A stretch of 64,000 bases of DNA from contig CM041198.1 of NCBI GenBank assembly GCA_023078555.1, forward strand, positions 8,293,836 to 8,357,835, read 5' to 3'. The DNA is from Ulva prolifera. Taxonomy: Eukaryota > Chlorophyta > Ulvophyceae > Ulvales > Ulvaceae. The position numbers and the translations under genes are program-made. Shown one piece after another: positions 13,201 to 64,000 of the stretch (positions are counted from its first letter, which is position 1; each line of letters begins with the position of its first letter). Under the pieces are notes generated by a model. It searched no databases. It was given only the letters and a program-made list of their open reading frames with translations, and was not told where the DNA came from.

Positions 13201-13664
13201 ATATGAGTTTGTTCCGTTTGCTGTTGAGTCCTATGGGAAGCTCGCGCCGCGGGCGGAGGAGTACATCCGGGAGTTGGGTGAGATTGCTGCGGCATCAGGC
13301 CGCGTCTCCAAGTCGGTGTTTGTGATGAATGCGTACAAGTTGCTTTCGTGTGTGCTTCAGAAGGGCAATGCGGAGATGTACGCGCACACGCTGACGGCCG
13401 TCGCCCGGTCGTGCGGCAAGCATTTCACCCAAGGCCTTGATGTGCCGGTGGATGCCTTTCTGGGTTGAGAGCTCTGTTCCTAGAGCGTTTGATGATCTTG
13501 ATTTTGGTTGATGTCCGGGTTGTGTGTTGGGATGCGTTCTAGTTCCCCAAGTTCTGGTGGTTGCTCGTTTGGCGGCCGCTCGCTTGTCTTCCTGGCTTGT
13601 TGTGTGTGTTAGCTTGATGTATTGATTTGCTTTGCCATACAATGGCCCGGTATGTGTAACTTGA
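10268..13664 (+). mobile_element. LINE-1 copy B, tandem partner of copy A
   Basis: It follows A directly. After the A 3' end come the eight bases aagaatcc, then LINE sequence beginning exactly at the cccccgccgcc tract where A is deleted, then the entire downstream ORF and 3' UTR. It ends aacttga at 13664, followed by the same aagaatcc and the satellite, with TSD aatccatg at 13668-13675. It is almost identical to A, with few substitutions. It therefore looks like an in-place duplication, not an independent insertion. Confidence 0.85.
10272..13468 (+). pseudogene. LINE-1 copy B ORF, 5'-truncated, one nonsense codon
   Basis: The frame is open from the start of the copy through the Pro-rich region and the RT with YLDDF, then meets TAG at 12476-12478 where A and G have GAG (Glu, in DIEEWVTK). 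The rest, about 330 codons containing the CCHC knuckle and the R2-like endonuclease, continues in the same frame to the stop after VDAFLG at 13468. The normal initiator ATG region is absent. Confidence 0.85.
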
Positions 13665-16877: not shown

Positions 16878-17459
16878 TCAAGTTACACATACCGGGCCAT
16901 TGTATGGCAAAGCAAATCAATACATCAAGCTAACACACACAACAAGCCAGTAAGACAAGCGAGCGGCCGCCAAACGAGCAACCACCAGAACTTGGGGAAC
17001 TAGAACGCATCCCAACACACAACCCGGACATCAACCAAAAACAAGATCATCAAACGCTCTAGGAACAGAGCTCTCAACCCAGAAAGGCATCCACCGGCAC
17101 ATCAGGGCCTTGGGTGAAATGCTTGCCGCACGACCGGGCGACGGCCGTCAGCGTGTGCGCGTACATTTCCGCATTGCCCTTCTGCAGCACACACGAAAGC
17201 AACTTGTACGCATTCATCACAAACACCGACTTGGAGACGCGGCCTGATGCCGCAGCAATCTCACCCAACTCCCGGATGTACTCCTCCGCCCGCGGCGCGA
17301 GCTTCCCATAGGACTCAACAGCAAACGGAACAAACTCATATTGCGGCTTATCGGCAAACTTCTCCCAATCATCCCGCTTGAGCTTCTCCGCGACCTTCGC
17401 CGCCTCGGCATCCTCCCTATGCGACCCCTTACGCAAAGCATCCTTCCCAAGCGGATGCG
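16878..17459 (-). mobile_element. LINE-1 3' fragment in the satellite
   Basis: Minus-strand, 5'-truncated copy covering the last part of the ORF (endonuclease C-terminus, from HPLGKDALRKG to VDAFLG) and the complete 3' UTR. The 12-bp TSD gcgggaaggtct lies at 16860-16871 and 17457-17468, overlapping the LINE by three bases of microhomology. Six extra bases (aattgt) sit between the TSD and the 3' end. Confidence 0.9.
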
Positions 17460-22158: not shown

Positions 22159-22304
22159 TGTGTGTGTTGGGATGCGTTCTGGTTCCCCAACATCTGGTGG
22201 TTGCTCGTTTGGCGGCCGCTCGCTTGTCTTACTGGCTTGTTGTGTGTGTTAGCTTGATGTATTGATTTGCTTTGCCATACAATGGCCCGGTATGTGTAAC
22301 TTGA
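22159..22304 (+). mobile_element. LINE-1 3' UTR fragment in the satellite
   Basis: Only the last about 145 bases of the 3' UTR, ending aacttga. The 10-bp TSD actcatgacg lies at 22149-22158 and 22308-22317, with three extra bases ctt after the 3' end. It shares the variants ctggttccccaacatc and gtcttactgg with full-length copy G, and G is also followed by ctt in its own flank. Confidence 0.9.
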
Positions 22305-31504: not shown

Positions 31505-31568
31505 TGTGTGTGTTAGCTTGGTGTATTGATTTGCTTTGCCATACAATGGCCCGGTATGTGTAACTTGA
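31505..31568 (+). mobile_element. LINE-1 3' terminal fragment (64 bp) in the satellite
   Basis: The shortest kind of insertion, only the last 64 bases including the 3' hairpin gccatacaatggc and the end aacttga. The 12-bp TSD acaatccacacg is at 31493-31504 and 31573-31584, with the tail atgt between. It carries the ttggtgtattg variant that marks a sub-lineage. Confidence 0.9.
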
Positions 31569-37300: not shown

Positions 37301-37500
37301 CATAGTCACTTTGTCTTTCACTCCTGACTCTTCGTCCATTGTATTCGTGACGCTACTGTGGCGCTCTGCTCCTGTGCGCCGCAGGCCTGCGAACACGATT
37401 CGCAGTAGATATTGGCATCCGATTAATTAGATTTGTTTTATGGTCCATTTGTCTGTGTTTAGAGCTGCGCTGTGGAAGTTTCGAGTGCTGTAACGACTAC

Positions 37501-38976
37501 TAAGTTACACATATCTGGCCATTGTATGGCAAAGCAAACAAACAACATCAAGCCAACCCAGCGACCGGCTGCCACACCAGCAACCACAAGAAAGCAACAC
37601 AGCAAAAAAACCCCAGACAACAACCAACCACAAATGCATCAAACGCCCCACGGCCACAGCACTCAACCCACAAAGTCATCCACCGGCACATCAAAGCCAT
37701 GGGTGAAATGCTTGCCGCACGATCGGGCGACGGCCGTCAGTGTGCGCGCATACATTGTCGCATTGCCCTTCTGCAACACACACGAAAGCAACCTGTACGC
37801 ATTCATCACAAACACCGACTTGGAGACCCGGCCTGATGCCGCAGCAATCTCACCCAACTCCCTGATGTACTCCTCAGCCCGCGGCCCGAACTTCCCATAG
37901 GACTCAACGGCAAACGGAACAAACTCATACTGCGGCTTATCAGCAAACTTCTCCCAATCAGCCCGCTTGAGCTTCTCCGCGACCTTCGCCGCTGAGGCAT
38001 CCTCCCGGTGCGACCCCCTACTCAAAGCTTTCTTCCCGAGCGGGTGCGTCACCGTCACGTCCACCATGACATGACGCCCCCCCGGCAAGATCGCGAGGAT
38101 GTCCGCTCGGTGCTCCCCCACGGCCCCTGCTCCGTGCTCCCCATGCACGCCGGCATACGGCGGCTCTATGCTCGTCGTCACTGAAGCACAAGAATGAAGA
38201 TGGCGCATTGCAAGAGCAAAATCATCATGGCGCGACGAAATATCCTTGTTGTTTCGGGTACACAGCATAGCATGGTCTCCGCGGCCGACGCTCTCGCCAG
38301 AGCAATCGCATGGCGGCATCTCCACGGGGCCACTGACTCGCTCACCGAGGCGGTGGCGAAGGATGGTGGTGAGGGAGTGGTTACCGATGGTGGTGTACAG
38401 CCGCCGCCGGCCAGGGAGGGCGGACAAGAAGGCGCTGCCAGGGGCACCGCGGGCACTGCGCACTCGAGCAGCTTCGAGCCTGCCTGCCTCTGTGCTCAAG
38501 TCCATGCCATCCAGGAACGCCTTGCCGGCCTTGTCAGTCATGGACCTAGACACTGCATGCTGATCTTGATTTTGGTTGATGTCCGGGTTGTGTGTTGGGA
38601 GGCGTTCTAGTTCCCCAAGTTCTGGTGGTTGCTCGTTTGGCGGCCGCTCGCTTGTCTTATTGGCTTGTTGTGTGTGTTAGCTTGGTGTATTGATTTGCTT
38701 TGCCATACAATGGCCCGGTATGTGTAACTTGAATGAGACACTGCATGCTGCAAAAAAGGGAGAACATGACGCACTCCTTTGCTGGAAAAGTCCGCCGGTG
38801 AGCCACCGTCGATCTTGTCGGAGACCTTCGTGACCCACTCCTCGACGTCGGGCAAAACGCCGCGGATGCAGTCCCAGGCGCGCTGCATCGCCGGCGCGGC
38901 AGGCCCGTCGAGCCGCTGGAACACGGCAGGGCCGTCAGCAACGACCCGTTGAGCCACCGCGACGCCGGTGAGCAAC
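37501..38976 (-). mobile_element. LINE-2 3' half inserted (reversed) in the 5' UTR of copy D
   Basis: Minus-strand, 5'-truncated LINE-2 with 11-bp TSD gctgtaacgac (37487-37497 and 38977-38987). It holds the thumb region, CCHC knuckle (CDCSGESVGRGDHAMLC) and endonuclease (RADILAILPGGRHVMVDVTV), ending VDDFVG with stop near 37663, and the 3' UTR ending aactta at 37501. The reading frame is open on each side of a nested LINE-1 fragment at 38561-38732, so it was little decayed before that insertion. Confidence 0.9.
38561..38732 (+). mobile_element. LINE-1 3' UTR fragment inside the reversed LINE-2
   Basis: Last about 172 bases of LINE-1, ending aacttga. The 15-bp TSD agacactgcatgctg lies at 38548-38562 and 38736-38750, with the tail atg between the 3' end and the TSD. 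It carries the ttggtgtattg sub-lineage variant. This shows LINE-1 activity after LINE-2 insertion. Confidence 0.92.
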
Positions 38977-41390
38977 GCTGTAACGACAGCGGTCGTACAG
39001 CCCAGCGCCTAGGAGCACGAGCGTTCTCGTGAACTCAATGCCAATATGCTTTATCTATTTCGTTAAATAGACTGCTGCGTTTAGTTTAGGTCCTCGCGTT
39101 CCGGACGGTGCCTTGTTGCCGTGGCTGTAAGTTGCAGTCCCGGTGGCTCTGTCTGTGAAGCGACTAGAAGCGGAGCTAAAAGAACCCGCCCGCGAAGCAC
39201 AAAAAGAAAACAAAGTGCCAGGATTATATTTTATGACGACGCTCGGTTAGAGCATGTCCTCGACGTCGAAGAGAAGGCGTTCTGGGACGCCTGAAGGTGT
39301 CGCAGCTCCAGCACGCTCGCCCATCAAGCTCCAGCTGGCTGTGCTACATCCAGAAGCAATAGATGAAGCAGCAGCTGCTAGATCTGATTGCGAGTGCTGC
39401 TTGCAAGGCAGCCCCGTAGAGGTCGAAGCTGAGGACAGCAAAGCAGATGAGACTCCACATGAACCGCCAGCAGCCGCTAGCAGGCTCCAGAACCTCGGCT
39501 CGCAACCAAGTTGCGAGTTGCATCTGTGCCAGCTAGCGCTCCGCGGTCACGGCGGGCGAAGCTGAGAGAGGATCCCGGTCCACCCTCGGGCCAGCCTTCC
39601 CGGAGCAGCTCTGAGGAACCTCCCTGCACTGAAGAAGCAGCCAAGGCTGCTCCAGCTGCTGAAGGTCCGTCAAGCACATCAGCCACGCCAGCCCCAGCGC
39701 CCACCCCTGCAGCAGCCACCGGAGCAGCGACGCCTACAGACGCACCACCAGCGCATCGACCATCCTCCGACCGCCCGATCCCCACCAATGATGAACCCAC
39801 CGACCGTGGAGCCACAGCCAGCGCAGGCGCCGCGCACCCCGTGGTGCAGCCTCAGCCGGACCTTCCCCCGCCGCCACCCCCGCCGCCAGCCCAGCCCGCC
39901 CCTGCCGACCCGCCTGCAGCCACTGCTGAACAGTCAGCACCTGGCGCGGGTGCCGGCACGCGCGAGCAGCCCGCCCGGCCCGCAGCCGCCACCCCAGGCG
40001 CCGGTACGAGCCGCGGTGGCGCCGGCCGAGCGGCAAAGGGGCGTGGAGGCGGCCGGAAGCAAGCGCCGAGGAAGCACAAAGGGCTGCGCGCCGCCCAAGC
40101 CTGTCCACGCACAGGCCAACAACACGGCGGCGGCACCACCCGCAAGTTCATCAGACGGGCAGTGTCAGAACAGCTCACCCGCAACTTTAGCCTCTGCTCT
40201 GCACAAGCCCTCGAGGCCATCTCGTCGGCAGCGGCAGAGGCAGGTGGCCGAAGTGCGCTGAACCAGGTGCTAGCCCCCATCGCCGCACTCCTCCGTCTCC
40301 CTTCGCTTGTCCTTGCTGAGCCACGTGGCGGCAGCGACACCGACAAGCGTGACAAGCGCATGCTGGCCATTATGGCCAAGTACCGGCGTGGGGAGCTGGA
40401 GGACGAGGAGGGCGGCTTTGTGCCTTCGGTGACCCATCGGCGAAAGGAGATGACCGAGGAGGCGCGTCTAGCAGAGCGCGTGGAGTCCGGAGTGAAAGGC
40501 GGGAGCATTCACATCCCCGCCCGCCGTCTGAAGAATGAGTAGCCGGCTGATACGACGTCCGCTGCCGTCATGGAGAAGCTGCGTGCGCTGCACCCGGCGG
40601 CGGCGCCACCGCCGCCTCTCGAGTGCGACGTGCCTGCTCTTCAGATTGACAGCATCCTGCTCCGCAGGGTGCTTGACCGCATCAAGAACCACAAAAAAGG
40701 CCGCGCCGGGGGACCCTCGGGTTGGACCTTCGAGATGATCCTTGCGGTCACCGGGGGTACCGCCCGGGGGTTCCGAGCGGCCCTCGATTTTGTGAACTTG
40801 ATGTTGTCCGGCATGCTGCCCCGCAAGTGCGGCCTCCTCGACTCGAAGCTCCTCGCTCTCCAGAAGGATGCAGGGGGTGTCCGGCCCATCGCCATCGGCG
40901 AGGTCTTGTACCGCCTTGCAGCGATGTGCGCGATCGAGGCTGTCGGCAAAGCCGCGGGGCGGGACCTCGCGCCCCTGCAAGTGGGCGTCGGCACGGCTGG
41001 CGGGACGGAAGCGGTAGCGCACAGCGTCGCGGCGGCGCTGGAGAAGGACCCCCACGCCATCGCGCTGATGGTGGACATGCGGAATGCTTTCAACGAGATC
41101 CACCGCAACGCCGTCGCGCGCGGGGTTTTGAAAGCGCTGCCGGAGCTGCTCCCGTTCTTCCATTACGGGTACGGTGCTGCCACCCAACTCCATGTGGTGG
41201 GTGCCGCTAGCGGCACTGTGATTGAGTCGCAGCGTGGGGTGCGGCAGGGCGACCCGCTGGGGCCGCTGCTGTTTGCATTGGGCTTCCAGGAAGTCTTGAC
41301 GGCACTAGCGGCAGCAGTCCCGGAGGCGCCCAGCATGTCGTACCTCGATGACTTCTCTGCCGTGGGCCGCGGGCATGCGTTGCGCAAGGT

Positions 41391-41433
41391 CCTAGGCCGC
41401 CTCTGCGGGGATGGTCCGCAGAGGCGGCCTAGG
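41391..41433. repeat. Perfect 18-bp palindrome at a LINE 5' junction
   Basis: Arms cctaggccgcctctgcgg (41391-41408) and its exact reverse complement (41416-41433) around a 7-base loop. The left arm is native LINE D coding sequence. The right arm is filler between the left TSD (41405-41418) and the start of the inserted LINE-2 3' end at 41434. Confidence 0.92.
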
Positions 41434-41553
41434 GTTTGTCTGGGGTTTTTGCTGTGCTGCTTTCTTGTGGTTGCTGGTGTGGCAGCCGGTCGCTGTTTTG
41501 GCTTGGTGTTGTTTGTTTGCTTTGCCATACAATGGCCAGATATGTGTAACTTA
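41434..41553 (+). mobile_element. LINE-2 3' UTR fragment in the RT of copy D
   Basis: About 120 bases of the LINE-2 3' UTR, ending aactta. The 14-bp TSD gcggggatggtccg is at 41405-41418 and 41562-41575. The 5' side carries a 15-base filler that is an inverted copy of the adjacent target (see the palindrome entry). Confidence 0.9.
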
Positions 41554-41707
41554 TTAGCCACGCGGGGATGGTCCGGGCAGCGCGCGCTCGGTCGGCCTCA
41601 CCATCGTGCCGGGTAAGAGTGGCGTGTTTGCGCCCTGTGCCGAGGCGCACGAAGAGTGTCGTGCCATCCAGCAGTCCACCGGCGTGCCCCACAGAGAGGA
41701 GCATTTA

Positions 41708-41952
41708 GCATTTCACCCAAGGCCTTGATGTGCCGGTGGATGCCTTTCTGGGTTGAGAGCTCTGTTCCTGGAGCGTTTGATGATCTTGATTTTGGTTGAT
41801 GTCCGGGTTGTGTGTTGGGATGCGTTCTAGTTCCCCAAGTTCTGGTGGTTGCTCGTTTGGCGGCCGCTCGCTTGTCTTCCTGGCTTGTTGTGTGTGTTAG
41901 CTTGATGTATTGATTTGCTTTGCCATACAATGGCCCGGTATGTGTAACTTGA
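41708..41952 (+). mobile_element. LINE-1 3' fragment in copy D
   Basis: Begins at gcatttcaccc in the last codons of the ORF (FTQGLDVPVDAFLG) and includes the full 3' UTR to aacttga. The TSD cacagagagga is at 41690-41700 and 41957-41967. Seven extra bases (gcattta) at the 5' junction nearly repeat the start of the fragment, suggesting slippage. Confidence 0.9.
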
Positions 41953-42182
41953 AAATCACAGAGAGGACGGCATCACAGTGGTCGGCACCCACGTCGGCAC
42001 CGATGCCTTCGTCCGCGCGCGGCTGAAAGCCGCTGCCGCGAAGGCAATTGGGGAGATCGACCTGCTCATGCGCTTGCCGGTCACCAAGCAGGTGCAGCTG
42101 CTGCTGCTCCGGCAGTCATTTGCTGTCCGCTTGGTGCACCACCAGCGCACGACCAGGTGGGAGCTCCTGGCCGAGTCGACAC

Positions 42183-42507
42183 TGTCATGATGAGTCATCA
42201 AGCACTCAAGTATATATATATGACCAGATCCTCGAAGGAAGTAGTACACCTTCGGGTGGGCGCTTTTACTGACATGGTATCGGTGAGAGTGGTCATAGAG
42301 AGGATCTTAACCTCCATAGACGCAGGTTCGAATCCGGGTAGCTGCATCCGGATCCGCGTCCGCCTCCAAGTTTGTCTCCTCGGATCCTAGTCAGCGGTCC
42401 TTGAGTGAGGGGAGGTGTCATGATGAGTCATCAAGCACTCAAGTATATATATATGACCAGATCCTCGAAGGAAGTAGTACACCTTCGGGTGGGCGCTTTT
42501 CCTGACA
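42183..42507 (+). mobile_element. TRIM: 325-bp non-coding miniature LTR retrotransposon
   Basis: Two 92-bp LTRs (42183-42274 and 42416-42507), TGTCA...TGACA, differ at one base, so insertion is recent. Each contains a tatatatata box. A primer-binding site tggtatcggtgag directly follows the 5' LTR, and a purine tract gtgaggggagg directly precedes the 3' LTR. The 5-bp TSD gacac is at 42178-42182 and 42508-42512. The 141-bp interior has no ORF but holds a tRNA-like stretch with a perfect B-box-like ggttcgaatcc. It looks whole for its class and must use enzymes from another LTR element. The copia element at 51800 has the same LTR tips and primer site. Confidence 0.88.
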
Positions 42508-42928
42508 GACACGCGCCCTCGAAGGCGCTGTCGTCGCCGCGGTGGCGAGCATTGCGCAGGTGCCGGTCACGCAGGATCCGTCTGGCGTGCTCGTTCAGAT
42601 GAGCTCGGCAGTGCAGCAGATGTTGTTGCCGATTCGCCACGGCGGCCTTGGGCTGCGTATGACCCACCCAGTTGAGGCGAAAGCAGCGTTGCTCACCGGC
42701 GTCGCGGTGGCTCAACGGGTCGTTGCTGACGGCCCTGCCGTGTTCCAGCGGCTCGACGGGCCTGCCGCGCCGGCGATGCAGCGCGACTGGGACTGCATCC
42801 GCGGCGTCTTGCCCGACGTCGAGGAGTGGGTCACGAAGGTCTCCGACAAGATCGACGGTGGCTCACCGGCGGACTTCTCCAGCAAAGGAGTGCGTCATGT
42901 TCTCCCCTTTTTGCAGCATGCAGTGTCC

Positions 42929-44397
42929 GCGCGCGGCTGAAAGCCGCTGCCGCGAAGGCAATCGGGGAGATCGATCTGCTCATGCGCTTGCCGGTCACCA
43001 AGCAGGTGCAGCTGCTGCTGCTCCGGCAGTCATTTGCCGTCCGCTTGGTGCACCACCAGCGCACGACCAGGTGGGAGCTCCTGGCCGAGTCGACACGCGC
43101 CCTCGAAGGCGCTGTCGTCGCCGCGGTGGCGAGCATTGCGCAGGTGCCGGTCACGCAGGATCCGTCTGGCGTGCTCGTGCAGATGAGCTCGGCAGTGCAG
43201 CAGATGTTGTTGCCGATTCGCCACGGCGGCCTTGGGTTGCGCATGACCCACCCGGTTGAGGCGAAAGCTGCGTTGCTCACCGGCGTTGCGGTGGCTCACC
43301 GGGTCGTCGCTGACGGCCCCGCCGCGTTCCAGCGGCTCGACGGGCCGGCCGCGCCGGTCCTCCAGCACGACTGGGACTGCGTCCGCGGCATCTTGCCCGA
43401 CATCGAGGAGTGGGTCACGAAGATCTCCGGGAAGATCGACGGTGGCTCACCGGCGGACCTCTCCAGCAAAGGCGTGCGTCTTGTTCTCCCCTCCTTGCAG
43501 CATACTGTGTCTAGGTCCATGGGTGACAAGGCAGGCAAGGCGTTCTTGGACGGGATGGACTTGAGCACGGAGGCAGGCAGGCTCGGTGCTGCTCGTGTGC
43601 GCAGTGCCCGCGGCGCCCCCGGTAGCGCCTTCTTGTCCGCCCTCCCCGGCCGGCGGCGGCTGGACACCACCATCGGTAACCACTCCCTTACCACCATCCT
43701 TCGCCACCGCCTCGGTGAGCGAGTCTGCGGCCCTGTGGAGATGCCGCCGTGCGATTGCTCCGGCGAGAGCATCGGACGCGGCGACCATGCTATGCTGTGC
43801 ACCCGAAATAACAAGTGTCTTTCGTCGCGCCATGATAAATTTGCTTATGCAATGCGCCGTGTTCACACTTGTGCTGGGGTGTCCACGAGCATGGAGCCGC
43901 CGTACGCCGGCGTGCATGGGGATGCCGGAGCAGGGAACGTGGGGCGGCACAGGGCTGACATCCTCGCCATCCTGCCAGGTGGGCGTCATGTCATGGTGGA
44001 CGTGACGGTGACGCATCCGCTTGGGAAGGATGCTTTGCGTAAGGGGTCGCATAGGGAGGATGCCTCGGCGGCGAAGGTCGCGGAGAAGCTCAAGCGGGAT
44101 GATTGGGAGAAGTTTGCCGATAAGCCGCAATATGAGTTTGTTCCGTTTGCTGTTGAGTCCTATGGGAAGCTCGCCCCGCGGGCGGAGGAGTACATCCGGG
44201 AGTTGGGTGAGATTGCTGCGGCATCAGGCCGCGTCTCCAAGTCGGTGTTTGTGATGAATGCGTACAAGTTGCTTTCGTGTGTGCTGCAGAAGGGCAATGC
44301 GGAAATGTACGCGCACACGCTGACGGCCGTCGCCCGGTCGTGCGGCAAGCATTTCACCCAAGGCCTTGATGTGCCGGTGGATGCCTTTCTGGGTTGA
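42929..44397 (+). pseudogene. LINE-1 copy E ORF fragment: thumb, CCHC knuckle and endonuclease
   Basis: Open throughout, from VRARLKAAAAK to VDAFLG with stop ending at 44397. It has the CCHC knuckle and the R2-like endonuclease motif (RADILAILPGG, MVDVTVTHPLG). The N-terminal region and the RT catalytic box are missing, so it cannot act alone. No stop has accumulated, so it is young. Confidence 0.85.
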
Positions 44398-44476
44398 GAG
44401 CTCTGTCCCTAGAGCGTTTGATGATCTTGATTTTGGTTGATGTCCGGGTTGTGTGTTGGGTTGCGTTCTCTGTCAT

Positions 44477-44678
44477 TCAAGTTACACATACCGGGCCATT
44501 GTATGGCAAAGCAAATCAATACATCAAGCTAACACACACAACAAGCCAGTAAGACAAGCGAGCGGCCGCCAAACGAGCAACCACCAGAACTTGGGGAACT
44601 AGAACGCATCCCAACACACAACCCGGACATCAACCAAAATCAAGATCATCAAACGCTCTAGGAACAGAGCTCTCAACC
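44477..44678 (-). mobile_element. LINE-1 3' UTR fragment in copy E, carrying a 7-base transduced tag
   Basis: Reversed fragment truncated at the ORF stop codon. The 11-bp TSD ggttgcgttct is at 44459-44469 and 44679-44689. Between the left TSD and the LINE 3' end lie seven bases (ctgtcat) found at the same place beside LINE copy H at 61847, where they belong to the copia host. The two 3' UTRs appear identical over about 200 bases. Confidence 0.9.
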
Positions 44679-45536
44679 GGTTGCGTTCTAGTTCCCCAAG
44701 TTCTGGTGGTTGCTCGTTTGGCGGCCGCTCGCTTGTCTTACTGGCTTGTTGTGTGTGTTAGCTTGATGTATTGATTTGCTTTGCCATACAATGGCCCGGT
44801 ATGTGTAACTTGAGTGATTTTTCAAAGGCCCAACCAGCAGCTCTGTACGCTGATCCCTGAGGATGATTTTGTTGTTTTGGCCAGAGTAGGACAAACCTGC
44901 TTCGTCTGCACGGCTGAGAGAGATGAGGTTGTGCTGTAGAGTGGGGACGAGCAAGACGCCTTTGAGAGTGACCTGGTTACCATGATGGTTGGTGAGCTGC
45001 ACAGTGCCAACTGCGGTGACTTCGGCTGTCTGTTTGTTGGCAACTGTGCACTTGGAGCTGAAGGACTTGGCATCATGGAGAACGGCGGGGTCATTCACCA
45101 TGTGGTCAGTCGAAGCTGAGTCGAATAACCACTTGGACCTGTCAATTTCAACCTTGTTTGCAGCGGTGCAGACAAATGCACTGGTGTGGTTGGCATAGGA
45201 GCCACGGCCACGACCTCTACCTCGGCCTCTGCCTCGGCCACGGCCTCTGCCACGGCCTCTGCCTTGCTTGTACCCGGGATCACTCTGCGCTGCTTGCTGA
45301 TCATTCTTCAATTTGAAACATTGAAGGATATGATGACCCTTGTGGTGGCAGTAGTCACACTCTTGCTGAGAGTGGGTACTACCTATCTGGTAAGCCTCGG
45401 ACTGCGAGGTGCTACCGGTGGTGTGCAACTTCTGGTAAAACGTACCACGAAGATTCTCTGTCACATCCGCGAATGTGGGCAGCTCTGCTTGGGCTGCGAT
45501 TGCTTGCGCCCATGACGTACATGAGTTAATAAGTTC

Positions 45537-45604
45537 TTGTTGTGTGTGTTAGCTTGGTGTATTGATTTGCTTTGCCATACAATGGCCCGGTATGTGTAAC
45601 TTGA
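45537..45604 (+). mobile_element. LINE-1 3' terminal fragment (68 bp) in copia element 1
   Basis: Last 68 bases of LINE-1, ending aacttga, with the ttggtgtattg variant. The 15-bp TSD catgacgtacatgag is at 45511-45525 and 45610-45624. There are eleven extra bases at the 5' junction and a five-base tail atgta at the 3' junction. Confidence 0.9.
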
Positions 45605-47132: not shown

Positions 47133-47144
47133 TGCAGTAGGTGA

Positions 47145-47276
47145 GTTGTGGTTGGTTGTTGTTTGGGGTTTTTGCTGTGATGCTTTCTTGTGGTTGCTAG
47201 TGTGGCAGCCGGTCGCTGGTTTGGCTTGATGTTGTTTGTTTGCTTTGCCATACAATGGCCAGATATGTGTAACTTA
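47145..47276 (+). mobile_element. LINE-2 3' UTR fragment
   Basis: About 130 bases ending aactta. The 12-bp TSD tgcagtaggtga is at 47133-47144 and 47285-47296. An eight-base tail (tcagacgg) sits between the 3' end and the TSD. Confidence 0.88.
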
Positions 47277-47450
47277 TCAGACGGTGCAGTAGGTGACCCT
47301 GGAAAGTGCTGCCTTATGGGATTCGCTCAACCGAGAACTACGTCTACGCGGTTTGCGTTTGGGATCGTCGATGTTGCTGCCACCCGCGGGCACCTTCCCC
47401 CCAGCGACGGGACGCCTGGTGGATTCAGCCTTGGCTGCTATATGGGACAG

Positions 47451-47737
47451 CTTTCGTGTGTGTTGCAGAAGGGCAATGCGACAATGTATGCGCGCACACT
47501 GACGGCCGTCGCCCGGTCATGCGGCAAGCATTTCACCCATGGCTTTGATGTGCCGGTGGATGACTTTGTGGGTTGAGTGCTTTGCCCGTGGGGCGTTTGA
47601 TGCATTTGTGGTTGGTTGTTGTCTGGGGTTTTTGGCTGTGATGCTTTGTTGTGGTTGCTGGTGTGGCGGCTAGTCGCTGAGTTGGCTTGATGTTGTCTGT
47701 TTGCTTTGCCATACAATGGCCAGATATGTGTAACTTA
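47451..47737 (+). mobile_element. LINE-2 3' fragment next to diverged satellite
   Basis: Starts in the last codons of the ORF (SCVLQKGNATMYARTLTAVA), reaches stop after VDDFVG at 47576, and continues through the 3' UTR to aactta at 47737. The right flank is diverged 121-bp satellite. No TSD was identified. Confidence 0.85.
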
Positions 47738-50790: not shown

Positions 50791-50834
50791 TCTTGACGCG
50801 TCGCATTGCATCGCGTCGCATGAAGGCTGGATCT

Positions 50835-51799
50835 TTTCACTCCTGACTCTTCGTCCATTGTATTCATGACGCTACTGTGGCGCTCTGCTCCTGTGCGCCG
50901 CAGGCCTGCGAACACGATTCGCGGTAGATATTGGCATTTGATTTATTTCTTTTGTTTTATGATCCGTTTGTCTGTGTTTTGAGCTGCGCTGTGGAAGTTT
51001 CGAGTGCTGTAACGAAAGCGGTCGTACAGCCCAGCGCCTAGGAGCACGAGCGTTCTCGTGAATTCAATGCCAATATGCTTTATCTATTTCGTGAAATAGA
51101 CTGCTGCGTTTAGTTTAGGCCCTCGCGTTCAGGACGGTGCCTTGTTGCTGTGGCTGCAAGTTGCAGTCCCGGTGGCTCTGTCCTTGAAGCGACTAGGAGC
51201 GGAGCAAAAGAACCCGCCCGCGAAGCACAATAGAAAACAATGTGCCAGGATTGTACTTTATGACGACTTCCTGTTAGAGCATGTCCTTGACGTCGCAGCT
51301 CCAGCATGCTCGCTCATCAAGCTCCAGCGCGCTATGCTACATCCAGAAGCAAACGATGAAGCAGCAGCTGCAAGATCTGATTGCGAGTGCTGCTTGCAAG
51401 GCAGCCCCGTAGAGGTCGAAGCTGAGGACAGCAAAGCAGATGAGACTCCACATGATCCGCCAGCAGCCACTAGCCGGTTCCAGAAGCAGCTCGCAACCAA
51501 GTTACGAGTTGAGTCTGTGCCAGCTAGCGCTCCGCGGTCACGGCGGGCGAAGCTGAGAGAGGATCCCGGTCCACCCTCGGGCCAGCCTTCCCGGAGCAGC
51601 TCCGAGGAACCTCCCTGCACTGAAGAAGCATCCAAGGCTGCTCCAGCTGCTGAAGGTCCGTCAAGCACATCAGCCACACCAGCCCCAGCGCCCACCCCTG
51701 CAGCAGCCACCGGAGCAGCGACGCCTACAGACGCACCACCAGCGCATCGACCTTCCTCCGACCGCCCGATCCCCACCAATGATGCACCCACCGACCGTG
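50835..51799 (+). mobile_element. LINE-2 copy F, 5' part only
   Basis: 5' UTR from tttcactcc at 50835, with the conserved hairpins. The ORF start region follows, from the ATG in gagcATGtccttgacg (about 51279). A 34-bp deletion just after the ATG, between two gtcg copies, shifts the frame. The Ala/Pro-rich N-terminal region then continues to TNDAPTDR. It is cut at 51799 by the 5' LTR of copia element 2. The subfamily is assigned by the 5' UTR variants shared with copy D (tgtggaagtttcgagtgc). Confidence 0.85.
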
Positions 51800-52973: not shown

Positions 52974-53127
52974 TCCGGGTTGTGTGTTGGGATGCGTTCT
53001 AGTTCCCCAAGTTCTGGTGGTTGCTCGTTTGGCGGCCGCTCGATTGTCTTACTGGCTTGTTGTGTGTGTTAGCTTGATGTATTGATTTGCTTTGCCATAC
53101 AATGGCCCGGTATGTGTTACTTGAATG
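52974..53127 (+). mobile_element. LINE-1 3' UTR fragment, upstream half of a chimeric insertion
   Basis: Begins tccgggttgtgtgttggg and ends acttga plus atg, directly followed by a LINE-2 fragment. The only TSD is shared with that fragment: actgtctatcgcatgt at 52955-52970 and 53309-53324. Confidence 0.88.
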
Positions 53128-53302
53128 CACTTTGTGGGTTGAGTGCTCTGGCCTGTTGGCGTTTGATGCATTTGTGGTTGGTTGTTCTCTGGGGTTTTTG
53201 GCTGTGTTGCTTTCTTGTGGTTGCTAGTGTGGCAGCCGGTCGCTGGTTTGGCTTGATGTTGTTTGTTTGCTTTGCCATACAATGGCCAGATATGTGTAAC
53301 TT
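53128..53302 (+). mobile_element. LINE-2 3' UTR fragment, downstream half of a chimeric insertion
   Basis: Starts at actttgtgggttgag (stop-codon region of LINE-2) directly after the LINE-1 3' end and ends aactta at 53302. The 16-bp TSD actgtctatcgcatgt flanks the pair, not each part. Confidence 0.88.
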
Positions 53303-53365: not shown

Positions 53366-53529
53366 TCAAGTTACACATACCGGGCCATTGTATGGCAAAG
53401 CAAATCAATACACCAAGCTAACACACACAACAAGCCAATAAGACAAGCGAGCGGCCGCCAAACGAGCAACCACCAGAACTTGGGGAACTAGAACGCCTCC
53501 CAACACACAACCCGGACATCAACCAAAAC
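53366..53529 (-). mobile_element. LINE-1 3' UTR fragment in copia element 2
   Basis: Reversed fragment of about 164 bases with the 3' end at 53366. The TSD gctaagtat is at 53357-53365 and 53533-53541. It carries the ttggtgtattg and cttattggc variants, also seen in the fragment at 38561. Confidence 0.9.
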
Positions 53530-54870: not shown

Positions 54871-55010
54871 GTTGGGATGCGTTCTAGTTCCCCAAGTTCT
54901 GGTGGTTGCTCGTTTGGCGGCCGCTCGCTTGTCTTCCTGGCTTGTTGTGTGTGTTAGCTTGATGTATTGATTTGCTTTGCCATACAATGGCCCGGTATGT
55001 GTAACTTGAA
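54871..55010 (+). mobile_element. LINE-1 3' UTR fragment in the copia integrase region
   Basis: About 140 bases ending aacttgaa. The 9-bp TSD agttgggat is at 54870-54878 and 55011-55019, overlapping the LINE sequence gttgggat by microhomology at the 5' junction. Confidence 0.9.
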
Positions 55011-55793: not shown

Positions 55794-56241
55794 TTTCACT
55801 CCTGACTCTTCGTCCATTGTATTCGTGACGCTACTGTGGCGCTCTGCTCCTGTGCGCCGCAGGCCTGCGAACACGATTCGCAGTAGGTATTGGCATCTGA
55901 ATATTTAGTTTTGTTGTTTGGTATGTTTGTCTGTGTTTTCAGCTGCGCTGAGGAAGTTCCGAGCGCTGTAACGACAGCGGTCGTGCAGCCCAGCGCCTAG
56001 GAGCACGAGCGTTCTCGTGAATTCAATGCCAATATGCTTTATCTATTTCGTTAAATAGACTGCTGCGTTTAGTTTAGGTCCTCGCGTTCTGGACGGTGCC
56101 TTGTTGCCGTGGCTGTAAGTTGCAGTCCCGGTGGCTCTGTCTGTGAAGCGACTAGGAGCGGAGCTAAAAGAACCCGCCCGCGAAGCACAAAAAGAAAACA
56201 AAGTGCCAGGATTACATTTTATGACGACGCTCGGTTAGCGC
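55794..56241 (+). promoter_or_regulatory. LINE-1 5' UTR with conserved hairpins (copy G)
   Basis: The start is structured: ctactg (55831) can pair with cagtag (55881) around two inner hairpins, ggcgc/gcgcc (55838/55854) and tgcgaa/ttcgca (55866/55877). Two more perfect hairpins follow: cacgag-cgtt-ctcgtg (56004-56019) and ctattt-cgtt-aaatag (56043-56058). The same folds are possible in copies A, D and F. A promoter inside this UTR is expected for an autonomous LINE, but none can be pinpointed. Confidence 0.5.
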
Positions 56242-59200
56242 ATGTCCTCGACGTCGAAGAGAAGGCGTTCTGGGACGCCTGAAGGCGTCGCAGCTCCAGC
56301 ACGCTCGCCCATCAAGCTCCAGCGCGCGCAGCTGCATCCAGAAGCAGAAGAGGAAGCAGCAGCAGCAAGATCTGCGGGCGAGTGCTGCTTGCAAGGCAGC
56401 CACGCAGAGGTCGAAGCTGAGGACAGCAAAGCGGATGAGACTCCAAAGCAACCGCCTGCAGCCGCTAGCCGGCTCCAGAAGCAGCTCGCAACCAAGTTAC
56501 GAGTTGATTCTGTGCCAGCTAGCGCTCCGCGGTCGCGGAGGGCGAAGCTGAGAGAGGATCCCGGTGCTCTCTTGGGCCAGCCCTCCCGGAGCTGCTCTGA
56601 GGAACCTCCCTGCACTGAAGAAGCAGCCAACGCTGCTCCAGCTGCTGAAGGTCCGTCAAGCACATCAGCCACGCCAGCCCCAGCGCCAACCCCTGCAGCA
56701 GCCACCGGAGCAGCGACGCCTACAGAAGCACCACCAGCGCACCGACCATCTTCCAACCGCCCGATTCCCGCCAATGATGGACTCGCCGACCGTGGAGCCA
56801 CAGCCAGCGCAGGCGCCGCGCACCCCGTGGAGCAGCCTCAGCCGGACCTTCCCCTGCCACCACCCCCGCCGCCAGCCCAGCCCGCCCCTGCCGACCCGCC
56901 TGCAGCCACCGCTGAACAGTCAGCATCTGGCGCGGGTGCCGGCACGCGCGAGCAGCCCGCCCGGCCCGCAGCCGCCGCCCCAGGCGCCGGCACGAGCCGC
57001 AGTGGCGCCGGCAGAGCGGCAAAGGGACGCGGAGGCGGCCGGAAGCAAGCGCCAAGGAAGCACAAAGGGCTGCGCGCCGCTCAAGCCTGTCCACGCACAG
57101 GCCAACAACATGGCGGCGGCACCACTCGCAAGTTCATCAGGCGGGCAGTGTCAGACCAGCTCACCCGCGACTTTAGCCTCTGCTCTGCCCAGGCCCTCGA
57201 GGCTATCTCGTCGGCTGCGGCAGAGGCAGGAGGCCGAAGTGCGTTGAACCAGGTGCTAGCCCCCATCGCTGCACTCCTCCGCCTCCCATCGCTTGTCCTT
57301 GCTGAGCCGCGAGGTGGCAGCGACACCGACAAGCGTGACAAGCGCATGCTGGCCATCATGGCCAAGTATCGGCGTGGGGAGCTGGAGGACGAGGAGGGGG
57401 GCTTCGCGCCATCTGTGACCCATCGGCGGAAGGAGATGACTGAGGAAGCGCGCCTAGCAGAGCGAGTGGAGTCAGGAGTGAAAGGCGGGAGCATCCACAT
57501 CGCCGCCCGTCGCCTGAACGACGAGAAGCCGGCCGACACGACGTGCCCCGCCGTCATGGAGAAGTTGCGTGCGTTGCACCCGGCGGCGGCGCCGCCGCCG
57601 CCTCTCGAGTGCGACGTGCCTGCTCTCCAAATTGACAGCACCCTGCTTGTGAGGGTGCTTGACCGCATCAAGAACCACAAAAAAGGCCGAGCTGGGGGCC
57701 CCTCGGGTTGGACCTTTGAGATGATCCTTGCGGTCACTGGGGGTACTGCCCGGGGGTTCCAAGCGGCCCTCGATTTTGTGAACTTGATGCTGTCCGGTAT
57801 GCTGCCCCGCGAGTGCGGACTCCTCGACTCGAAGCTCCTCGCTCTCCAGAAGCAGACAGGAGGTGTCCGGCCCATCGCCATCGGCGAGGTCTGGTACCGC
57901 CTTGCAGCGATGTGCGCGATCGAGGCTGTCGGCAAAGCCGCGGGGCGGGACCTTGCGCCCCTGCAGGTGGGCGTCGGCACGGCCGGCGGGACGGACGCAG
58001 TGGCGCACAGCGTCGCGGCGGCGCTGGAGAAGGACCCCCACGCCATCGCGCTAACGGCGGACATGCGGAATGCTTTCAACGAGATCCACCGCACCGCCGT
58101 CGCGCGCGGGGTCTTGAAGGCGCTGCCGGAGCTGCTCCCGTTCTTCCAATTCGGGTACGGTGCTGCCACCCATCTCCATGTGGTGGGTGCCGCCAGCGGC
58201 ACTGTGATCGAATCGCAGCGTGGGGTGCGGCAGGGCGACCCGCTGGGGCCGCTACTGTTTGCGTTGGGCTTCCAAGAGGTCTTGACGGCGCTTGCGGAAG
58301 CAGTCCCGGAGGCGCCCTGCATGTCGTACCTCGATGACTTCACTGCCGTGGGCCGCGGGCCTGCGTTGCGCAAGCTCCTGGGCCGCCTCTGCGGGGACGG
58401 TCCGGGCAGCGCGCGCTCGGTCGGCCTCACCATCGTGCCGGGCAAGAGTGGCTTGTTTGCGCCTTGTGCCGAGGCACATGAGGAGTGTCGTGCCGTCCAG
58501 CAGTCCACCGGCGTGCCCCACAGAGAGGACGGCATCACAGTGGTCGGCACCCACGTCGGCACTGACGCCTTCGTCCGTGCGCGGCTGAAAGCCGCTGCCG
58601 CGAAGGCAATCGGGGAGATCGATCTGCTCATGCGCTTGCCGGTCACCAAGCAGGTGCAGCTGCTGCTGCTCCGGCAGTCATTTGCCGTCCGCTTGGTGCA
58701 CCACCAGCGCACGACCAGGTGGGAGCTCCTGGCCGAGTCGACACGCGCCCTCGAAGGCGCTGTCGTCGCCGCGGTGGCGAGCATTGCGCAGGTGCCGGTC
58801 ACGCAGGATCCGTCTGGCGTGCTCGTGCAGATGAGCTCGGCAGTGCAGCAGATGTTGTTGCCGATTCGCCACGGCGGCCTTGGGTTGCGCATGACCCACC
58901 CGGTTGAGGCGAAAGCTGCGTTGCTCACCGGCGTTGCGGTGGCTCACCGGGTCGTCGCTGACGGCCCCGCCGCGTTCCAGCGGCTCGACGGGCCGGCCGC
59001 GCCGGTCCTGCAGCACGACTGGGACTGCGTCCGCGGCATCTTGCCCGACATCGAGGAGTGGGTCACGAAGATCTCCGGGAAGATCGACGGTGGCTCACCG
59101 GCGGACCTCTCCAGCAAAGGCGTGCGTCTTGTTCTCCCCTCCTTGCAGCATACTGTGTCTAGGTCCATGGGTGACAAGGCCGGCAAGGCGTTCTTGGACG

Positions 59201-60045
59201 GGATGGACTTGAGCACGGAGGCAGGCAGGCTCGGTGCCGCTCGTGTGCGCAGTGCCCGCGGCGCCCCCGGTAGCGCCTTCTTGTCCGCCCTCCCCGGCCG
59301 GCGGCGGCTGGACACCACCATCGGTAACCACTCCCTTACCACCATCCTTCGCCACCGCCTCGGTGAGCGAGTCTGCGGCCCTGTGGAGATGCCGCCGTGC
59401 GATTGCTCCGGCGAGAGCATCGGACGCGGCGACCATGCTATGCTGTGCACCCGAAATAACAAGTGTCTTTCGTCGCGCCATGATAAATTTGCTTATGCAA
59501 TGCGCCGTGTTCACACTTGTGCTGGGGTGTCCACGAGCATGGAGCCGCCGTACGCCGGCGTGCATGGGGATGCCGGAGCTGGGAAAGTGGGGCGGCACAG
59601 GGCGGACATCCTCGCCATCCTGCCAGGTGGGCGTCATGTCATGGTGGACGTGACGGTGACGCATCCGCTTGGGAAGGATGCTTTGCGTAAGGGGTCGCAT
59701 AGGGAGGATGCCTCGGCGGCGAAGGTCGCGGAGAAGCTCAAGCGGGATGATTGGGAGAAGTTTGCCGATAAGCCGCAATATGAGTTTGTTCCGTTTGCTG
59801 TTGAGTCCTATGGGAAGCTCGCGCCGCGGGCGGAGGAGTACATCCGGGAGTTGGGTGAGATTGCTGCGGCATCAGGCCGCGTCTCCAAGTCGGTGTTTGT
59901 GATGAATGCGTACAAGTTGCTTTCGTGTGTGCTGCAGAAGGGCAATGCGGAAATGTACGCGCACACGCTGACGGCCGTCGCCCGGTCGTGCGGCAAGCAT
60001 TTCACCCAAGGCCTTGATGTGCCGGTGGATGCCTTTCTGGGTTGA
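56242..60045 (+). CDS. LINE-1 polyprotein: reverse transcriptase with R2-like endonuclease (1267 aa)
   Basis: A single protein that would nick the target and reverse transcribe the element RNA there (target-primed reverse transcription). Residues 1-260 are Ala/Pro-rich and disordered-looking, with a basic KRRRSG start. A basic segment (GRAAKGRGGGRKQAPRKHKG, about 255-275) may bind nucleic acid. RT: GGPSGWTFEM (about 483), motif A ADMRNAFNEIH (about 606), motif B GVRQGDPLGPLLFA (about 661), catalytic YLDDF (about 696). CCHC knuckle: C1053, C1055, H1065, C1069. Endonuclease: RAD (D1122) and VDV (D1136), spaced as in the R2-type K/R-PD-X12-14-D/E motif. There is no apurinic endonuclease domain. 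The start is the first ATG after the 5' UTR and is conserved in copies A and D. The frame is uninterrupted. Confidence 0.93.
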   Translation: MSSTSKRRRSGTPEGVAAPARSPIKLQRAQLHPEAEEEAAAARSAGECCLQGSHAEVEAEDSKADETPKQPPAAASRLQKQLATKLRVDSVPASAPRSRRAKLREDPGALLGQPSRSCSEEPPCTEEAANAAPAAEGPSSTSATPAPAPTPAAATGAATPTEAPPAHRPSSNRPIPANDGLADRGATASAGAAHPVEQPQPDLPLPPPPPPAQPAPADPPAATAEQSASGAGAGTREQPARPAAAAPGAGTSRSGAGRAAKGRGGGRKQAPRKHKGLRAAQACPRTGQQHGGGTTRKFIRRAVSDQLTRDFSLCSAQALEAISSAAAEAGGRSALNQVLAPIAALLRLPSLVLAEPRGGSDTDKRDKRMLAIMAKYRRGELEDEEGGFAPSVTHRRKEMTEEARLAERVESGVKGGSIHIAARRLNDEKPADTTCPAVMEKLRALHPAAAPPPPLECDVPALQIDSTLLVRVLDRIKNHKKGRAGGPSGWTFEMILAVTGGTARGFQAALDFVNLMLSGMLPRECGLLDSKLLALQKQTGGVRPIAIGEVWYRLAAMCAIEAVGKAAGRDLAPLQVGVGTAGGTDAVAHSVAAALEKDPHAIALTADMRNAFNEIHRTAVARGVLKALPELLPFFQFGYGAATHLHVVGAASGTVIESQRGVRQGDPLGPLLFALGFQEVLTALAEAVPEAPCMSYLDDFTAVGRGPALRKLLGRLCGDGPGSARSVGLTIVPGKSGLFAPCAEAHEECRAVQQSTGVPHREDGITVVGTHVGTDAFVRARLKAAAAKAIGEIDLLMRLPVTKQVQLLLLRQSFAVRLVHHQRTTRWELLAESTRALEGAVVAAVASIAQVPVTQDPSGVLVQMSSAVQQMLLPIRHGGLGLRMTHPVEAKAALLTGVAVAHRVVADGPAAFQRLDGPAAPVLQHDWDCVRGILPDIEEWVTKISGKIDGGSPADLSSKGVRLVLPSLQHTVSRSMGDKAGKAFLDGMDLSTEAGRLGAARVRSARGAPGSAFLSALPGRRRLDTTIGNHSLTTILRHRLGERVCGPVEMPPCDCSGESIGRGDHAMLCTRNNKCLSSRHDKFAYAMRRVHTCAGVSTSMEPPYAGVHGDAGAGKVGRHRADILAILPGGRHVMVDVTVTHPLGKDALRKGSHREDASAAKVAEKLKRDDWEKFADKPQYEFVPFAVESYGKLAPRAEEYIRELGEIAAASGRVSKSVFVMNAYKLLSCVLQKGNAEMYAHTLTAVARSCGKHFTQGLDVPVDAFLG

Positions 60046-60241
60046 GAGCTCTGTTCTTAGGGCGTTTGATGATCTTGTTTTTGGTTGATGTCCGGGTTGT
60101 GTGTTGGGATGCGTTCTGGTTCCCCAACATCTGGTGGTTGCTCGTTTGGCGGCCGCTCGCTTGTCTTACTGGCTTGTTGTGTGTGTTAGCTTGATGTATT
60201 GATTTGCTTTGCCATACAATGGCCCGGTATGTGTAACTTGA
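60046..60241 (+). other. LINE-1 3' UTR with terminal hairpin (copy G)
   Basis: G/T-rich 3' UTR. The terminal 31 bases contain the hairpin gccat-aca-atggc (60211-60223) and the end tatgtgtaacttga. Hairpin and tail are shared with LINE-2, whose 3' UTR otherwise differs greatly, so they are the likely RT recognition site. All truncated copies in the window keep this end. Confidence 0.7.
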
Positions 60242-61846: not shown

Positions 61847-64000
61847 TCAAGTTACACATACCGGGCCATTGTATGGCAAAGCAAATCAATACATCAAGCT
61901 AACACACACAACAAGCCAGTAAGACAAGCGAGCGGCCGCCAAACGAGCAACCACCAGAACTTGGGGAACTAGAACGCATCCCAACACACAACCCGGACAT
62001 CAACCAAAATCAAGATCATCAAACGCTCTAGGAACAGAGCTCTCAACCCAGAAAGGCATCCACCGGCACATCAAGGCCTTGGGTGAAATGCTTGCCGCAC
62101 GACCGGGCGACGGCCGTCAGCGTGTGCGCGTACATTTCCGCATTGCCCTTCTGCAGCACACACGAAAGCAACTTGTACGCATTCATCACAAACACCGACT
62201 TGGAGACGCGGCCTGATGCCGCAGCAATCTCACCCAACTCCCGGATGTACTCCTCCGCCCGCGGCGCGAGCTTCCCATAGGACTCAACAGCAAACGGAAC
62301 AAACTCATATTGCGGCTTATCGGCAAACTTCTCCCAATCATCCCGCTTGAGCTTCTCCGCGACCTTCGCCGCCGAGGCATCCTCCCTATGCGACCCCTTA
62401 CGCAAAGCATCCTTCCCAAGCGGATGCGTCACCGTCACGTCCACCATGACATGACGCCCACCTGGCAGGATGGCGAGGATGTCAGCCCTGTGCCGCCCCA
62501 CTTTCCCTGCTCCGGCATCCCCATGCACGCCGGCGTACGGCGGCTCCATGCTCGTGGACACCCCATCACAAGTGTGAACACGGCGCATTGCATAAGCAAA
62601 TTTATCATGGCGCGACGAAAGACACTTGTTATTTCGGGTGCACAGCATAGCATGGTCGCCGCGTCCGATGCTCTCGCCGGAGCAATCGCACGGCGGCATC
62701 TCCACAGGGCCGCAGACTCGCTCACCGAGGCGGTGGCGAAGGATGGTGGTAAGGGAGTGGTTACCGATGGTGGTGTCCAGCCGCCGCCGGCCGGGGAGGG
62801 CGGACAAGAAGGCGCTACCGGGGGCGCCGCGGGCACTGCGCACACGAGCAGCACCGAGCCTGCCTGCCTCCGTGCTCAAGTCCATCCCGTCCAAGAACGC
62901 CTTGCCTGCCTTGTCACCCATGGACCTAGACACAGTATGCTGCAAGGAGGGGAGAACAAGACGCACGCCTTTGCTGGAGAGGTCCGCCGGTGAGCCACCG
63001 TCGATCTTCCCGGAGATCTTCGTGACCCACTCCTCGATGTCGGGCAAGATGCCGCGGACGCAGTCCCAGTCGTGCTGGAGGACCGGCGCGGCCGGCCCGT
63101 CGAGCCGCTGGAACGCGGCGGGGCCGTCAGCGACGACCCGGTGAGCCACCGCAACGCCGGTGAGCAACGCAGCTTTCGCCTCAACCGGGTGGGTCATGCG
63201 CAACCCAAGGCCGCCGTGGCGAATCGGCAACAACATCTGCTGAACTGCCGAGCTCATCTGCACGAGCACGCCAGACGGATCCTGCGTGACCGGCACCTGC
63301 GCAATGCTCGCCACCGCGGCGACGACAGCGCCTTCGAGGGCGCGTGTCGACTCGGCCAGGAGCTCCCACCTGGTCGTGCGCTGGTGGTGCACCAAGCGGA
63401 CGGCAAATGACTGCCGGAGCAGCAGCAGCTGCACCTGCTTGGTGACCGGCAAGCGCATGAGCAGATCGATCTCCCCGATTGCCTTCGCGGCAGCGGCTTT
63501 CAGCCGCGCGCGGACGAAGGCGTCAGTGCCGACGTGGGTGCCGACCACTGTGATGCCGTCCTCTCTGTGGGGCACGCCGGTGGACTGCTGGACGGCACGA
63601 CACTCCTCATGTGCCTCGGCACAGGGCGCAAACACGCCACTCTTACCCGGCACGATGGTGAGGCCGACCGAGCGCGCGCTGCCCGGACCGTCCCCGCAGA
63701 GGCGGCCCAGGAGCTTGCGCAACGCAGGCCCGCGGCCCACGGCAGTGAAGTCATCGAGGTACGACATGCAGGGCGCCTCCGGGACTGCTGCCGCAAGCGC
63801 CGTCAAGACCTCCTGGAAGCCCAACGCAAACAGTAGCGGCCCCAGCGGGTCGCCCTGCCGCACCCCACGCTGCGATTCGATCACAGTGCCGCTGGCGGCA
63901 CCCACCACATGGAGTTGGGTGGCAGCACCGTACCCGAATTGGAAGAACGGGAGCAGCTCCGGCAGCGCCTTCGAGACCCCGCGCGCGACGGCGGTGCGGA
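61847..64000 (-). mobile_element. LINE-1 copy H, reversed, runs off the window
   Basis: The 3' end is at 61847 (reverse complement of aacttga), inserted in the copia RT region, with LINE sequence to the right edge. Its 5' end and second TSD are outside the window. The adjacent copia bases ctgtcat reappear as a tag at the fragment at 44477, marking H as a likely source. Confidence 0.92.
62043..64000 (-). CDS. LINE-1 copy H polyprotein, C-terminal about 650 codons (partial)
   Basis: Open from the window edge (within the RT, before motif B) to the stop after VDAFLG. It contains GVRQGDPLGPLLFA, the YLDDF box, the thumb region, the CCHC knuckle and the endonuclease RAD...VDV pair. No stop or frameshift is seen in the visible part. 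Only a few substitutions separate it from copies E and G, so it may be intact. Confidence 0.88.
   Translation of the reverse strand, partial: RTAVARGVSKALPELLPFFQFGYGAATQLHVVGAASGTVIESQRGVRQGDPLGPLLFALGFQEVLTALAAAVPEAPCMSYLDDFTAVGRGPALRKLLGRLCGDGPGSARSVGLTIVPGKSGVFAPCAEAHEECRAVQQSTGVPHREDGITVVGTHVGTDAFVRARLKAAAAKAIGEIDLLMRLPVTKQVQLLLLRQSFAVRLVHHQRTTRWELLAESTRALEGAVVAAVASIAQVPVTQDPSGVLVQMSSAVQQMLLPIRHGGLGLRMTHPVEAKAALLTGVAVAHRVVADGPAAFQRLDGPAAPVLQHDWDCVRGILPDIEEWVTKISGKIDGGSPADLSSKGVRLVLPSLQHTVSRSMGDKAGKAFLDGMDLSTEAGRLGAARVRSARGAPGSAFLSALPGRRRLDTTIGNHSLTTILRHRLGERVCGPVEMPPCDCSGESIGRGDHAMLCTRNNKCLSSRHDKFAYAMRRVHTCDGVSTSMEPPYAGVHGDAGAGKVGRHRADILAILPGGRHVMVDVTVTHPLGKDALRKGSHREDASAAKVAEKLKRDDWEKFADKPQYEFVPFAVESYGKLAPRAEEYIRELGEIAAASGRVSKSVFVMNAYKLLSCVLQKGNAEMYAHTLTAVARSCGKHFTQGLDVPVDAFLG

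Follow-up and report, generated by a model that had tools for sequence, protein, structure and literature searches.

The LINE family in the window

The window we investigated, by which we mean the whole 64-kb stretch of DNA, contains a full-length LINE, copy G, that lies inside a copia-type LTR element and belongs to a family with further copies on both sides (Table 1). Self-comparison counts 22 insertions of this family (A-F, H-K, N, O, Q-Y and G), which occupy about 23.6 kb of the 64 kb. The ends that the first-pass annotation had assigned to copy G (55794 and 60241) and its uninterrupted ORF of 1267 codons (56242-60045) were both confirmed. Four copies begin at a common 5' end (A at 6514, F at 37316, T at about 50833 and G at 55794), and all others whose 5' junction can be read are 5'-truncated. 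At the other end, all 20 copies that keep their 3' end stop at element position 4446-4448, that is, within 2 nt. A search for a ribozyme at the 5' end of copy G (55700-56300) found nothing in Rfam at E up to 5; the RNA folding z values of this copy are -1.52 for the first 147 nt, -2.86 for the last 147 nt and -0.12 for the last 67 nt.

Table 1. Copies of the LINE family in the window and features of copy G
Feature	Position	Strand	Host, TSD and remarks	Basis
Copy A	6514..13664	+	full-length, in satellite, interrupted by copy B; TSD AATCCATG; one in-frame stop	self-blastn, TSD table, tblastn
Copy B	7572..10267	+	5'-truncated, within copy A; TSD TCCCCCGCC	self-blastn, TSD table
Copy C	16878..17459	-	5'-truncated, in satellite; 12-bp TSD	self-blastn, TSD table
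Copy D	22161..22304	+	5'-truncated, in satellite; 10-bp TSD picked by eye	self-blastn, TSD table
Copy E	31505..31568	+	5'-truncated, in satellite; 13-bp TSD	self-blastn, TSD table
Copy F	37316..42927	+	full 5' end, diverged, 3' part lost; holds H, J, K and a 325-bp small LTR element	self-blastn
Copy H	37502..38978	-	diverged subfamily, within F; 11-bp TSD	self-blastn, TSD table
Copy I	38558..38732	+	5'-truncated, within H; 15-bp TSD	self-blastn, TSD table
Copy J	41419..41552	+	diverged subfamily, within F; 14-bp TSD	TSD table
Copy K	41707..41952	+	5'-truncated, within F; 11-bp TSD	self-blastn, TSD table
Copy N	42925..44813	+	5'-truncated, interrupted by copy O; no clear TSD	self-blastn
Copy O	44477..44678	-	5'-truncated, within N; 11-bp TSD	self-blastn, TSD table
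Copy Q	45536..45604	+	5'-truncated, in second copia-type element; 15-bp TSD	self-blastn, TSD table, host domains
Copy R	47140..47275	+	diverged subfamily; 12-bp TSD by eye; 5' limit approximate	self-blastn, TSD table
Copy S	47450..47736	+	diverged subfamily; no clear TSD	self-blastn
Copy T	50833..51799	+	full 5' end, cut by the LTR element bearing U-Y	self-blastn
Copy U	52974..53124	+	5'-truncated, immediately upstream of V	self-blastn
Copy V	53125..53302	+	diverged subfamily; 15-bp TSD around U and V together	TSD table
Copy W	53366..53528	-	5'-truncated, in LTR element; 9-bp TSD	self-blastn, TSD table
Copy X	54871..55009	+	5'-truncated, in LTR element; 9-bp TSD	self-blastn, TSD table
Copy G	55794..60241	+	full-length, 4448 bp, within copia-type LTR element	self-blastn, junctions, host domains
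G, 5' untranslated region	55794..56241	+		no Rfam match
G, single ORF (P0001)	56242..60045	+	1267 aa	open reading frame
G, reverse transcriptase (RT) core	57847..58449	+	residues 536-736 (RPIAIG, ADMRNAF, RQGDPLGPLLF, YLDD)	Pfam RVT_1, E 1.2e-10
G, zinc-knuckle-like motif	59398..59448	+	C1053-x1-C1055-x9-H1065-x3-C1069	regular expression, positions
G, restriction-like endonuclease (RLE) motifs	59470..59814	+	residues 1077-1191: R1079-H1080, A-D1122, D1136, K1167-x2-D-W	positions
G, 3' untranslated region	60046..60241	+		alignment of 15 of the 20 copies keeping the 3' end
Copy Y	61847..63999	-	in LTR element, 99% identical to G; 5' end past the window edge	self-blastn

The first 15 nt of copy J repeat, in inverted orientation, the target flank at 41391 (41391-41433), which may reflect template switching at the 5' junction. 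Copies U and V, one from each of the two subfamilies, are arranged head to tail within a single target site duplication (TSD; 52974-53302), as if a single insertion event had copied two RNAs in a template jump; the alternative is a nested insertion without a TSD.

The protein encoded by copy G

The predicted protein, P0001, is alanine/proline-rich over residues 1-290, and a regular-expression search upstream of residue 1053 found no CCHH or CCHC pattern. Beyond the RVT_1 match, Pfam gives nothing else at E up to 1. The best matches of known structure are the R2 retrotransposon proteins 9nl2 (E 8e-5), 9nl3 and 9dou, which align over the RT with E values from 8e-5 to 5e-3; the RT also matches an NCBIfam group II intron model (E 7.7e-5), with 22 bits against a cut-off of 300.

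P0001 shares with RLE-encoding LINEs the arrangement of a single ORF with the RT upstream of the endonuclease region. For such elements, PMC5678591 describes, in this order, a knuckle of the form CX2-3CX7-8HX4C, an RH at the first helix, a variant of PD-(D/E)XK and a KX2KY motif. The order is kept in P0001, the P of PD is replaced by A and KX2KY by K-x2-D-W (with K1167 assigned by eye), and the spacing of the knuckle (x1, x9, x3) falls outside the published form (PMC5678591). Copy H, with 89% protein identity, keeps the RH, AD, D and K of the RLE at the same places. With an E cut-off of 10, neither Pfam nor NCBIfam nor PDB yielded a match to the endonuclease region, and AlphaFold models of the RLE and of the RT-RLE part are unusable, with pLDDT values of 31.4 and 33.6. 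Because no profile or solved structure spans the region and both models have low pLDDT, the RLE is a motif-based assignment. The R2-type endonuclease of the first-pass annotation was not confirmed beyond this ordered motif series and found no backing in profiles, PDB entries or models; judged from these motifs, copy G probably carries an RLE.

Host sequences

The hosts proposed earlier, namely a satellite, two different copia-type elements and other LINE copies, were all confirmed. A satellite with a 121-bp unit hosts A, C, D and E, and these four insertions occupy three positions of the unit, with A and C at the same position in opposite orientation. The family's own copies host B, H, I, J, K and O. 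Around V, W, X, G and Y, Pfam recognises Pol_BBD, a weak rve match below the cut-off and RVT_2 of one copia-type element, whose presumed first ORF has no Pfam match; the second copia-type element, around Q, is marked by a copia-type gag (PF14223) and Pol_BBD. A search of the literature for a 121-bp satellite associated with a LINE gave no mention of '121-bp' among the matches listed.

The first copia-type element (51800-61846) is itself inserted in LINE copy T and was later struck by U/V, W, X, G and Y, which amounts to five or six LINE insertions in about 5 kb of host sequence.

Target site duplications and a weak nick preference

Exact TSDs of 8-15 bp flank 15 of the 22 insertions (A, B, C, D, E, H, I, J, K, O, Q, R, V, W and X), with 0-9 extra nucleotides between the element end and the TSD and no poly(A). 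The other seven insertions do not enter this count: the 3' end is missing from F and T and the 5' end from Y, no clear TSD surrounds G, N or S, and U has its 5' side in common with V. The 8-16 bp TSDs given for the family by the first-pass annotation do not hold for copy G, which it had singled out: the flanks of this copy contain no such duplication, and the best candidates there are 7-8 bp long, carry one mismatch and are misplaced. The TSDs of D and R were set by eye, in the case of D within a tandem repeat that gives longer chance matches, and for B and V, longer candidates were trimmed.

Target-primed insertion places the first-strand nick at the left edge of the TSD, and we took the nick position from the TSD edges. 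At this edge, C occupies position -2 in 12 of the 15 sites, a pyrimidine position -1 in 14 and A position +1 in nine, so that C-Y precedes the inferred first-strand nick at 11 of 15 sites; D and R, the two set by eye, are not among the 11. Compared to random sites within 300 bp, the largest information content of a single column has a P of 0.0085 and the best four-column window a P of 0.00055. A bias at position -1 is possible, since extension of a TSD stops only where it and the tail no longer agree, and a second null applies the same extension. Under this second null, for all 15 sites, none of 1000 runs contained a dinucleotide of equal strength at any of the columns scanned. Outside the satellite C-Y is found at 10 of 11 sites, and again none of 1000 null runs was as strong; for the main subfamily alone the count is 8 of 11 (13/1000 null runs as strong), and for the diverged subfamily alone it is 3 of 4, where the scan is not significant (152/300). 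Inside the satellite C-Y occurs at one of four sites, which is the chance level (null 6510/20000), and the best word is A/C followed by A (2/300). At 6 of 15 sites GGNC lies no more than 6 nt upstream of the nick, against an average of 0.91 in the null (P 0.00014); this word was selected with the data already in view. C-Y too was picked after the sites had been viewed, and the best-dinucleotide scan corrects for this choice for C-Y only.

Because C-Y is enriched before the nick at most of the 15 sites, yet no fixed target is visible, the family seems to have a short nick preference instead of a fixed site; the motif is weak and comes from 15 sites in one window. The hosts, with satellite, copia-type elements and own copies among them, agree with the first-pass annotation in that no fixed target site is seen. 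The same annotation had described the TSDs as unrelated and 8-16 bp long, and had named a clear shared motif at most genomic insertion sites as one result that would speak against it. Exact TSDs of 8-15 bp are indeed found at 15 of the 22 insertions, and the sites share a short word after all, weakly, as the C-Y at 11 of the 15 window sites.

Age, selection and the 3' end

Identity to G reaches about 99% in copies B, N and Y, so the activity of the family is recent. For dN/dS against G we compared 11 of the 16 non-G tblastn segments, omitting residues 1-80 of F, the F/J piece 714-763, the 15-residue piece of K, and S and T. The ratio is 0.54 for the N-terminal piece of A and 0.00-0.43 in nine segments, among which copy H has 0.28; for copy C it is undefined, with three replacement changes and zero synonymous ones. 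Across the 11 segments, an in-frame stop occurs twice, once each in A and F. From ratios of 0.00-0.54 we conclude that the protein has been under selection.

The two 3' UTR subfamilies differ over most of the UTR, and 34 of 37 positions are invariant at 60203-60239 (15 of the 20 3' ends aligned). Such a conserved terminus would fit recognition of the RNA by the RT at this place.

Interpretation and alternative explanations

We consider it very likely that the family is a non-LTR retrotransposon of the R2 type with an RLE, recently active and probably autonomous, which would insert by target priming at loosely chosen sites. The signs of target-primed insertion are present: 5' truncation, a constant 3' end and a TSD at 15 of the 22 insertions. 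Target-primed reverse transcription is well established, and the mechanism we propose is drawn from that knowledge. The RLE would nick the antisense strand beside a short C-Y word, and the RT, recognising the RNA by its conserved 3' end, would start at the nick. In a protein with no recognisable N-terminal zinc-finger module, specificity would be left to the nick itself, and it may be because of this that copies land in the satellite, in LTR elements and in other copies of the family.

One could assume instead that the family is truly specific for a repeated target, be it the satellite, its own copies or a sequence outside the window, and that the other sites were hit off-target. Four of the 22 insertions in the satellite and six in own copies, as well as the satellite position shared by A and C in opposite orientation, are what such a preference would produce; however, D and E sit at other positions of the satellite unit, the sites within own copies all differ, and one copia-type element received V, W, X, G and Y and another received Q, which makes this explanation very unlikely. 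Recombination, or insertion into breaks that already existed and not under the direction of the RLE, might also account for some of the nesting. This would suit G, N and S, which lack a clean TSD, F and T, which lack the 3' part, and J with its inverted flank patch. Such an origin may hold for a minority of the insertions, but with exact TSDs at 15 of 22, agreeing 3' ends and non-random bases at the nick we find it hardly probable as the explanation to be preferred to target priming.

The assignment of the C-terminal region deserves the same scrutiny. If this region were not an active RLE, the family would have to use another endonuclease in trans, an idea to which the altered motif residues and a domain without database or structural support lend some weight. 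Against it, the motifs occur in the published order (PMC5678591) and persist in copy H, which has 89% protein identity and a dN/dS of 0.28, and we regard an endonuclease acting in trans as highly improbable. A more far-reaching reading of the family sees in it a deep, undescribed lineage of RLE LINEs from a microbial eukaryote that lacks N-terminal DNA-binding fingers, depends on its nuclease alone, nicks at a word close to (GG)NCY^A as seen on the sense strand, and often inserts into its own copies; we consider this reading rather unlikely.

Comparison with described elements

Returning to target-primed insertion at loosely chosen sites, this behaviour has published parallels. Two non-specific R2 families are reported in PMC5035012, according to which all other target-specific clades also contain non-specific families; HERO has many (PMC4640811); EhRLE3, three HERO families and YURECi are listed as non-specific RLE elements (PMC3636483); and BLAG of the German cockroach comprises non-site-specific R2-like elements (PMC7650587). 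Because every target-specific clade is reported to have non-specific families (PMC5035012), an RLE LINE without a fixed site is not unusual. The relaxed targeting suggested by the first-pass annotation for a LINE with RLE motifs is supported by the varied hosts and the lack of a fixed target, and its further suggestion of a poorly described clade found no support. The family is one more young LINE family in a field where non-specific RLE elements have already been published (PMC7650587, PMC4640811, PMC3636483, PMC5035012).

R2, as represented by 9nl2, 9nl3 and 9dou, has the same succession of RT, knuckle and RLE in one ORF that the motifs of P0001 suggest; however, our family shows no N-terminal zinc-finger pattern and its knuckle is spaced differently. 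The R2 clade carries one to three N-terminal zinc fingers (PMC7650587), for which no CCHH or CCHC pattern was found before residue 1053, and insertion in 28S rDNA, another feature of that clade, was not seen, with no Rfam match in the window at the gathering score. R2NS-1_SMed and R2NS-1_CSi, which are animal R2 elements, are RLE-type LINEs without a fixed target (PMC5035012), as our family probably is, and HERO elements (HEROFr, HEROTn, HERODr) likewise combine an RLE with often non-specific insertion (PMC4640811, PMC3636483); both are likened here by description only. BLAG resembles the family in being non-site-specific but has a varying number of N-terminal zinc fingers (PMC7650587), none of which we recognise in P0001. 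The EhLINE1 endonuclease of Entamoeba histolytica nicks preferentially at 5'-GTATT-3' (PMC3118788); it too favours a short word, but a different one from the C-Y on the sense strand found here. Utopia, of the NeSL clade, has one to three N-terminal zinc fingers and targets the U2 snRNA gene (PMC4640811); neither an N-terminal finger pattern in P0001 nor an Rfam match in the window at the gathering score was found. Dualen/RandI, reported in green algae (PMC8226300), encodes a PD-(D/E)XK-like nuclease (PMC3636483) and combines an APE with an RLE, whereas Pfam at E up to 1 found no APE in P0001.

Relatives of P0001 were confirmed in none of the viral contigs, bacterial and archaeal genomes, phages and plasmids searched, and a literature search joining RLE, non-LTR and green algae found no paper. 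The family itself may be undescribed, as far as these viral, prokaryote, phage and plasmid collections go. If the short nick preference were true genome-wide, the family would offer a useful comparison for how an RLE chooses its sites in a protein without recognisable N-terminal DNA-binding fingers.

Other features of the window

Inside copy F lies a 325-bp element (42183-42507) with terminal direct repeats of 92 bp that are 99% identical. Its first repeat is followed by TGGTATCGGTGA, as in the LTR element near 52148, and its interior contains GGTTCGAATCC, which resembles a tRNA B box; ARAGORN reports no tRNA. The element looks like a TRIM. Helenus has a tRNA-like piece within its LTRs (PMC10886601), whereas the piece in the 325-bp element is located outside the terminal repeats. 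Elsewhere, a stretch of about 45 bp, identified by eye, is present at 47990-48032 and, inverted, at 49519-49560, and bounds a segment between satellite pieces. An ORF resembling a protein kinase (Pfam Pkinase, E 1.6e-8) and a minus-strand integrase piece (rve_3, E 6e-4, below the cut-off) are found at 1360-1878 and 3136-3645, respectively.
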